DNA from: Datnioides undecimradiatus | Taxonomy: Eukaryota > Chordata > Actinopteri > Lobotiformes > Datnioididae | DNA length: 64,000 bases | NCBI GenBank assembly: GCA_008933995.1 | Contig: WARS01000034.1 | Coordinates: forward strand, 2,371,501-2,435,500 | Direction: 5' to 3' | Shown: positions 39,801 to 42,800 of the stretch, piece after piece | How the letters are laid out: each line of letters begins with the position of its first letter | Position numbering within the stretch: position 1 is the stretch's first letter | Notes under the pieces: generated by a model | The model's database searches: none | What the model saw: only the letters and a program-made list of their open reading frames with translations | Told to the model about the DNA's origin: nothing | Program-made: the position numbers and the translations under genes

Positions 39801-42800
39801 CTAATTCTCTGGTCCAAAGGTCACAGTGAGTCCTGTGGTGAAACGCTGTGGTCCCACTAAACAAAAACAACAATTTGTCAGTCAGAGTGCTGTTATTAAT
39901 TCCTCGGTTATTACTGAATCGTTCATATTTCTGTAATTACTGGTGGTTTAGTTTACAGTGATCTCCATCTGGTTGTTGGCCCGTTTCTGTTTTTTCTCTC
40001 CCAAATTCACCACCGCACTGCTGCCAAAACTAAAGTTCACAATGAGGCTGCTTTTCATTATGGATGATCTCCGTCTGTAGTTGCTTTTTCTCTCAAAACC
40101 CTACATTTAAAGAGCGGCATGGTGCTGCTATGTCTATTATATTTATGTCACGTTAGCTCAATATGAGTTAAAGAAAATATAAAAACGAAGGAATTTGAGG
40201 AAATACAAGGATGTGAGGGAGTACTAGCAGTGCTTGCTGTCTACATTGCCTTTAATGTAATATCAATTTGTCCAGGACAGATCAAGTATCCCTGATCAGC
40301 CACTAGGGGGCACTGTTCTCCTACAGTCTGAGTGACACACTGCGGGTCCCTCGCACTGTGTTTTTAAAGCTGTTTTGTGTGTCAGGTTGACCTTGCTAGC
40401 TGCTTTCTTCATTTTTATAAAACCCGAGCTTCAGTTAATATTGTGCTGCACGTATGTGGGAGGTGTCCTCGGTTCACTTCAGGATTTCTCAGACTCCAAG
40501 CCTTGAACCTCTGCTCTGTGTAGACAAGTGTACTTGTCCATGACGAGCTGCGTATTTGAAATTAATGAAATTTCTAAATGCCACCAACCTTGGGCACCAA
40601 AGGGATCTCTAATCAGGGTTGTAACAAAGTAAAGCACTTACCCTCAGTTCATTATTCAGTGTCTTTAAATTGTAGGAGGTAAAAGTGTTTGTGTGAATAA
40701 ATCACGCCAGAGGACAACATCTGTGTTCTAACCCACCTCATGGTGTAAAGCAAAGTGCCGTCGTCCTTCAGCCTCAGCAGCTTGTTGGGCGTGGTCATGT
40801 TATGAGCAATAGACTTCTTGCCATTAAGGAAGAAGGTGTCGGGGGTCCAGATGTTGCTCGCCAGCAGGTTGTTTAACGGCAGCATCTCCATGGGCCCTTT
40901 GAAGCACAGACGCTCGTCCTTCCAGCTCTGACGGAAGAACACGTCTATGGTGTATTCCTGAGGCAGGAGCAAAGGAACGATTGCAGTTCAGGTGGAAAAA
41001 GCAAGAACTGGGAGCAACAACTTTGCACATTCACTCCAAAATAGCAGTGAGGAGGTAGAGGAGGTGACTGCTCAGACCCAGAAGCCCTATAATGTGATGT
41101 CAGTAAAGCGCACTCTGCTCTCATGTTTACCAATCTGTCTGCTCTGTGATCATTATATCCCAAAAGATGCTGAAGGGATGCCAAAGGCAAAAGATCTTCC
41201 TCCGGATGTAGCGCTCACTGCGTTTTAAGAGATGGTTGTCTATTTCACTCTCAAGCCTCAGAACATCACTTCCTGTGGTGTGTATTTACCCAAAACAAGC
41301 ATTTTAAGTCAGATAAGGTCTCGCTTTCTGTTTCTTGACTCTGTCACAGCATCGTTTTCTCATTTAGACTCATAATATTTGCATACTTTTACGCAGAACT
41401 CTTCCTTAATGGAGCGTAAAATGTTGTTTTCTTGTCACATTACAAAGAAAGGAAGTAAATTGAGACAGAGAAGCTAAGTTAAATCACTTCCTTACAGTCA
41501 ATCAGCACAAAATGGTCAAACATTCTGCTGACTCCTAACTCCTTTATGCCTTCATAAATCCACTAATCTCGAGCAGATACGGTGATCAAACACTGCGGTG
41601 CACAATTCCATCATAAATTTGCTTGCGTGTGAAATATCGACACGCTTCAAGCATAAAACACAAACGCAAATGAACAGGAAACAAATACAATACTCCATCC
41701 TACAGAATAATGATGCTGTTAGCGGGCTGACATACACACTTTTATGCCCACAAAACCATTCAAGTCTCTTGCAACATTTCATTAATCAATCTGCCGGCCC
41801 TGTCAATACCGCTTTCAAGTCAATTATAGCAATGTGGCAAGTTTGATCACTGCTGTGTCAGAGTGTGCCAGGGATATGGCAGGGTGTAATAGGAGATTTA
41901 ATGAAAGGGGAGATTTAATGCATTTTGTTATCCAGGTGGAACAGCACAGTTCATAAGAGAATTTATTAATAAAGGGATGAATCATTTGGAACAAGTTGGA
42001 ACGGGCCAGCCACACTGCATTAAATCTTAAAAGTTTAGTCGTCCACGTTCATTTAGTCTCATTTACAAGTAAAAAAGAGCCAGTCTTCAAAGACACAACT
42101 AGGACATGAGTGTACTTCCTGGGAACAGCAGGAGCAGCGGTGCCACTCTCATGAAATGTAAATATATGTTTCGATCTAAAAACACAGACAGTGGTCTGGA
42201 CGGGTTTGTGTGTGTCTGAGTGTGTGTGTTTGTCCAGCCCTGTGTACCTGCAGTGTTTGCTGTAGATCAACTCACCATCTCCGTGTCAGACACCGGGCCA
42301 AAGCTGGTAACAAAAATATTTGTCTTGATCTCTGTGACATTCTCTGCAGAGAGAAAACAGTTGAGGATGTTTGAGCGTTATAACACAATAATTTGAGTTT
42401 TAATTGGACCAGTGTTTCTTCCTGAAACAGTCATCCATAAGTCATTATCTTCCCCTGGTGTTTGGACATTTCTTCCTTGAACGTCTCATTAAACATGTTA
42501 AAACTGAAATAAAATGACCTTTTTTTGACACATTTAGTATTTATAACTGCTCAGTTTGGCTCAAGCTACACATCACTCTGCAAAATTACTTTCTAGATAA
42601 ATCAATTCATCTTTCAGGAAATGTCAGACAGTTCAAGGCGTCATCTTGAAATGTCTTGTTTACATCAGCTGAAGGCAGAGAATGTTTTAAGCTTTTTAAA
42701 GGATTCGTTCTCCGTTCATCCACACTGGCTGATTTTGGGACATGTTATTATTCAAAATGAGAGATATTATGAAGGTATTGTGCAATAAAATCTATATTTA

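Follow-up and report, generated by a model that had tools for sequence, protein, structure and literature searches.

Several reports exist on the residues that govern benzodiazepine action at the alpha subunits of GABA-A receptors. A histidine at the back of the pocket, the switch residue, touches the chlorine of diazepam (PMC9775625). Arginine at the switch in alpha4 and alpha6 leads to insensitivity to classical benzodiazepines (PMC3407089). The same position, altered naturally in the fish gene described below, has been altered by engineering in human alpha5, where H105R abolishes the potentiation by midazolam (PMC6234229) and the effect of alanine depends on the ligand. H105A left the affinity of DMCM unchanged and lowered that of basmisanil about 25-fold; with two isoxazole PAMs the reduction was either 5-fold or absent (PMC10716045). 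Because the effects of H105A are ligand-dependent in this way, absence of the histidine does not by itself always end binding, and the clear loss known for arginine cannot be assumed without more for leucine. On loop C, Thr207 of alpha1 hydrogen-bonds zolpidem in a solved complex, and changing this residue disrupts efficacy (PMC9357065). Published structures place both positions (105 and 210 in human alpha5 numbering) inside the benzodiazepine pocket. In fish, zebrafish alpha5/beta3/gamma2 receptors have been recorded in oocytes with GABA (PMC7973766), and a word search of the main text of that paper found neither benzodiazepine nor diazepam. The zebrafish gene lists seen in two papers name one gabra5 (PMC5922542; PMC8514104). 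A limited literature search for H101L, H102L, H105L or His101Leu together with benzodiazepine or GABAA found no paper, and another, limited to titles and abstract openings, found no report of leucine at the switch in fish.

The DNA analysed here, referred to as the window, is a stretch of 64,000 nucleotides from Datnioides undecimradiatus (contig WARS01000034.1, positions 2,371,501 to 2,435,500). It contains a gabra5 gene on the minus strand (copy A). The codon at 40826..40828 (minus strand; aag on the plus strand) is CTT and encodes leucine at the position of human alpha5 His105 in loop A. Exon 5, which carries it (40737..40957, minus strand, AG/GT flanks), aligns without a gap to human alpha5 (PDB 6a96), in which the residue is histidine. 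Eight coding exons were located up to the stop, a set that excludes the signal-peptide exon and whose boundaries are as placed in this analysis. In addition to exon 5 these are, all on the minus strand, exon 3 (43875..43996; the first coding exon located, with a hand-placed 5' boundary), exon 4 (42276..42343), exon 6 with the Cys-loop (35878..35960), exon 7 with loop B and the start of loop C, ending I-H-T-S-R (29852..29995), exon 8 with the remainder of loop C and M1 (23535..23687), exon 9 with M2-M3 (23072..23283), and the last exon with the intracellular loop, M4 and the stop (21513..21812). The Cys-loop and transmembrane exons are intact. The gene is clustered with gabrb3, which lies head-to-head with it (exon 5 at 62070..62291, plus strand), and with gabrg3 (exon 3 at 13783..13869, minus strand). 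The human GABRA5 locus shows the same beta3-alpha5-gamma3 order. Exon 5 of the fish gene (40737-40957) also encodes an extra cysteine (R79C) and K96N; position 96 is lysine in 13/13 other alphas compared and asparagine in fish alpha5.

The alpha subunits of this genome, named after a tree containing the six human alphas, were compared at the switch. Nine alpha-type exon 5 loci, the best nine of 35 genome matches, were read. Four of the nine carry histidine (alpha1, two alpha2 genes and alpha3), three carry arginine (alpha4, alpha6 and an alpha6-like gene), and the remaining two, both alpha5, carry leucine. Neither alpha5 copy has the histidine of the benzodiazepine-sensitive class or the arginine of the insensitive alpha4/alpha6 class. 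A FastTree LG tree of 15 alpha segments joined human alpha5 and both fish copies (0.98) and paired the fish copies with each other (support 0.995). Over exons 5-8 the best human match is alpha5 (179/201 residues), followed by alpha3 (162/201). When the full-length protein was searched against the PDB, human chains of alpha2, alpha1 and alpha3 came out ahead of alpha5, whose chains matched only query residues 10-319; with the matched 201-residue segment, alpha5 came first. Fish-human identity over the 201 residues was 179 for alpha5 and for alpha6, 181 for alpha3, 184 and 185 for the two alpha2 genes, 187 for alpha4 and 192 for alpha1; the overall divergence of fish alpha5 from human is not unusual. 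Of the two residues described as unique to the alpha5 pocket in PMC10716045, Thr208 is kept and Ile215 is valine. Contrary to that description, isoleucine at the 215 column also occurs, among the sequences compared, in the alpha6 chain 9oum and in fish alpha6, and Ile215 is therefore treated here as a weak alpha5 marker. The original prediction of a CTT leucine in gabra5, at the His/Arg benzodiazepine switch and fitting neither class, agrees with the codon read, the gap-free alignment and the genome's other alphas, and its naming of the gene with the tree, the best human match and the cluster. The alpha6-like gene is an additional, fast-evolving one (source genome G000, C467:1673553-1675943), with a beta-type exon some 17 kb away; it has arginine at the switch and histidine at the column of Glu212.

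A search of the source genome, which covered 581 Mb, found a second beta3-alpha5-gamma3 cluster at C312:4178000-4264800, with gene order and relative orientation matching those of the window cluster on C486. The whole block is thus present twice. Exon 5 of the second gabra5 (copy B) lies at C312:4200171-4200391 and its protein is identical to that of copy A over the 74 residues compared, with leucine at the switch encoded by CTC instead of CTT. Arg210 in loop C (C312:4209807-4213231) is encoded by CGA in copy B and AGA in copy A. The two alpha5 proteins are identical at 399/430 aligned residues and differ at only 2/201 over exons 5-8, whereas 122/186 four-fold sites differ and NG86 gave a dN of 0.045 and a saturated dS of 4.0. 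Four-fold differences are quoted because YN00 gave no value in 6/8 comparisons and the NG86 dS was undefined for three exon 5 pairs. The introns of the two copies are mostly unalignable. Saturated four-fold sites together with a nearly identical protein exclude an assembly error, a haplotype, a recent duplication, a recent conversion between the copies and a recent mutation. An artefact of sequencing, assembly or haplotype, for which it could be said that only one assembly was available, has next to no probability in view of leucine at two loci on different contigs, by different codons, with diverged introns and each in its own cluster. Over exons 5 and 7, four-fold sites differ at 34/54 in the alpha5 pair and at 24/42 in the alpha2 pair (gabra2a/b), which is presumed here to stem from the teleost whole-genome duplication (3R). 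With a four-fold divergence like that of the alpha2 pair, the two gabra5 copies are probably a teleost genome-duplication pair as well. An exon 5 search of further genome contigs and of viral contigs found no relative.

Changes are also present in loop C. At the junction of exons 7 and 8 the window copy reads I-H-T-S-R-G-Q-Y and the C312 copy I-Y-T-S-R-G-Q-Y, where human alpha5 has I-S-T-S-T-G-E-Y. In both fish copies Thr210 (alpha1 Thr207) is replaced by arginine (AGA at 29853..29855, minus strand, in copy A) and Glu212 by glutamine (CAG at 23683..23685, minus strand). Threonine at the 210 column is invariant in 13/13 other alphas (6 human and 7 fish), and glutamate at the 212 column is kept in 12/13, the exception being the alpha6-like gene with its histidine. 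The 13 other alphas all agree at 107 columns, and fish alpha5 departs at four of these (96, 210, 221 and 238); the eight His-type alphas all agree at 150, and it departs at eight of these (96, 105, 210, 212, 217, 221, 235 and 238). The enrichment of these changes in pocket columns is weak to modest and partly post hoc, with p 0.034 for six columns named in the literature and p 0.005 for a wider column set picked after the changes were seen, and four or more of the departures (from 96, 217, 221, 235 and 238) fall outside the pocket columns. Phe103, Tyr163, Tyr213, Ser209 and Thr208, a hallmark of alpha5, are retained.

Fish alpha5 was compared with the closest described subunits. With human GABRA5 (6a96) it shares the clade, the beta3-alpha5-gamma3 cluster, Thr208 and the top match over exons 5-8, but it has His105 to Leu, Thr210 to Arg, Glu212 to Gln and Ile215 to Val, and it exists in two copies. 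With human alpha4 and alpha6 it shares a switch residue other than histidine; those subunits, however, have arginine at the switch and keep the threonine and glutamate of loop C, whereas fish alpha5 has leucine and a loop C arginine. With the GABA-A beta subunits it shares leucine at the aligned loop A column, which is found in the beta3 of both clusters, but its flanks and the rest of its protein are alpha-type. The beta3 exon 5 lies about 21 kb away, and gene conversion from this neighbour could have supplied the leucine. Such a tract could cover only a few bases, since the residues flanking the leucine are alpha-type, and the loop C changes sit in other exons; this origin is hardly credible. 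The original prediction had also held that the leucine does not reflect local decay. This is supported by the open exons with AG/GT flanks and by the 2/201 differences between the copies, and the locus on a different contig with leucine by another codon speaks against an assembly error. Its interpretation stands as regards gabra5, the switch site and the lack of decay or artefact, but not as a single odd residue in a single gene; the account is incomplete, since the leucine is common to two anciently duplicated alpha5 genes and accompanied by loop C changes on which the prediction was silent. The altered benzodiazepine binding that it expected is a plausible consequence. The alpha5 pocket shows an old and conserved remodelling in both genes, which takes in loops A and C and is larger than first noted.

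The alpha5 changes mostly predate the duplication. Parsimony over the 201 columns assigned 13 changes to alpha5 before the duplication and 2 after it, compared with 1 and 16 in the alpha2 pair (Fisher test, p 5e-6, leaving out 8 alpha5 and 5 alpha2 columns that were human-branch or ambiguous; p 2e-5 with the ambiguous columns counted as stem changes), a contrast that presumes alpha5 and alpha2 duplications of similar age. If the ages are indeed similar, the distribution of changes points to a burst of change in the alpha5 pocket, after which the new state was retained. Relaxed constraint or early pseudogene decay, with the leucine as one of several neutral hits, would be in keeping with the 22/201 differences between fish and human alpha5 over exons 5-8, R79C and K96N among them. 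The other fish-human pairs, with the alpha6-like gene left out, span 9 to 22 differences, a range that takes in this number. All eight located exons are open and AG/GT-flanked in each copy, and the copies differ at only 2/201 residues in spite of saturated four-fold sites. Decay is thus a very unlikely explanation.

Overall, the likeliest reading, held with reasonable but not high confidence, is that of a functional GABRA5 orthologue in two ancient copies whose alpha(+) benzodiazepine pocket was rebuilt before the duplication and has been kept by selection since, with a weakened or changed classical modulation. The changes placed before the duplication are His105 to Leu in loop A and, in loop C, Thr210 to Arg and Glu212 to Gln. 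The channel would still assemble with beta3 and gamma subunits and open to GABA. Classical benzodiazepines would no longer have the histidine to contact and would face an arginine at the loop C cap, and modulation at the alpha5/gamma interface would be strongly weakened or changed. Judged from the protein sequence, the response of this fish alpha5 receptor to Valium-like drugs is probably abnormal or absent. The weakening or change of classical modulation at this interface probably comes from Leu105 and Arg210 together, and the additional Arg210 may be as important as Leu105. Next to the alphas with histidine (alpha1, 2 and 3) and those with arginine (alpha4 and 6), fish alpha5 would then make up a third class (Leu/Arg).

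It is possible, though doubtful, that the residues have changed and that classical benzodiazepines bind and modulate all the same, Leu105 being small enough, Arg210 facing the solvent, and only some ligands being affected. The ligand dependence of H105A, which spares DMCM affinity and for two PAMs brings a 5-fold reduction or none (PMC10716045), is consistent with continued modulation, as are the retained Phe103, Tyr163, Tyr213, Ser209 and Thr208. In addition, a gamma2-like and a gamma1-like gene of this genome, named by resemblance, keep phenylalanine at the gamma2 F77 column. Against it, two contacts in one pocket are altered together, and the equivalent of one of them, Thr207, hydrogen-bonds a ligand in a solved complex and is invariant in 13/13 other alphas. 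A wider version of the preferred reading, of a rebuilt and selection-held pocket, is put forward only tentatively. It holds that ray-finned fish alpha5 is a third natural alpha class, with a pocket re-specialised in a burst before the teleost duplication, by leucine at the loop A switch and arginine in loop C, and frozen since, possibly owing to an endogenous modulator or to a part in gating that differs from the one in tetrapod alpha5.

Basmisanil and alogabat are drugs aimed at alpha5 receptors, and larval zebrafish serve benzodiazepine and seizure pharmacology (PMC8514104). If fish alpha5 generally is without the His/Thr pocket, results of alpha5-directed work in fish would not be transferable to mammals. 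The locus also offers a natural test of the old question of what keeps the residues of the vertebrate benzodiazepine site constant, as the pocket was altered in this case and the altered form was afterwards conserved.

Observations were also made on the gamma3 genes of the two clusters. Both copies have isoleucine at the column of gamma2 Phe77 in loop D of the benzodiazepine site (C312:4254637-4254840; C486:2341451-2341552). An Ile-type replacement at gamma2 F77 has been reported to lower zolpidem affinity more than 600-fold and that of diazepam 5-fold (PMC9357065). With the gamma3 isoleucine added to the alpha5 changes, both faces of this cluster's alpha5/gamma3 interface differ from the classical site. 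The gabrg3 of the window cluster has an apparent gained GT-AG intron of 450 bp within exon 5 (C486:2341008-2341457). The conserved LTLNSNMVGLIW reappears once this intron is removed, and the C312 copy is without an intron there; the alternative of a broken exon was rejected, as a gained intron explains the sequence better. In the same exon 5, LLRIWNDG has Arg in place of Trp and Asn in place of Asp.
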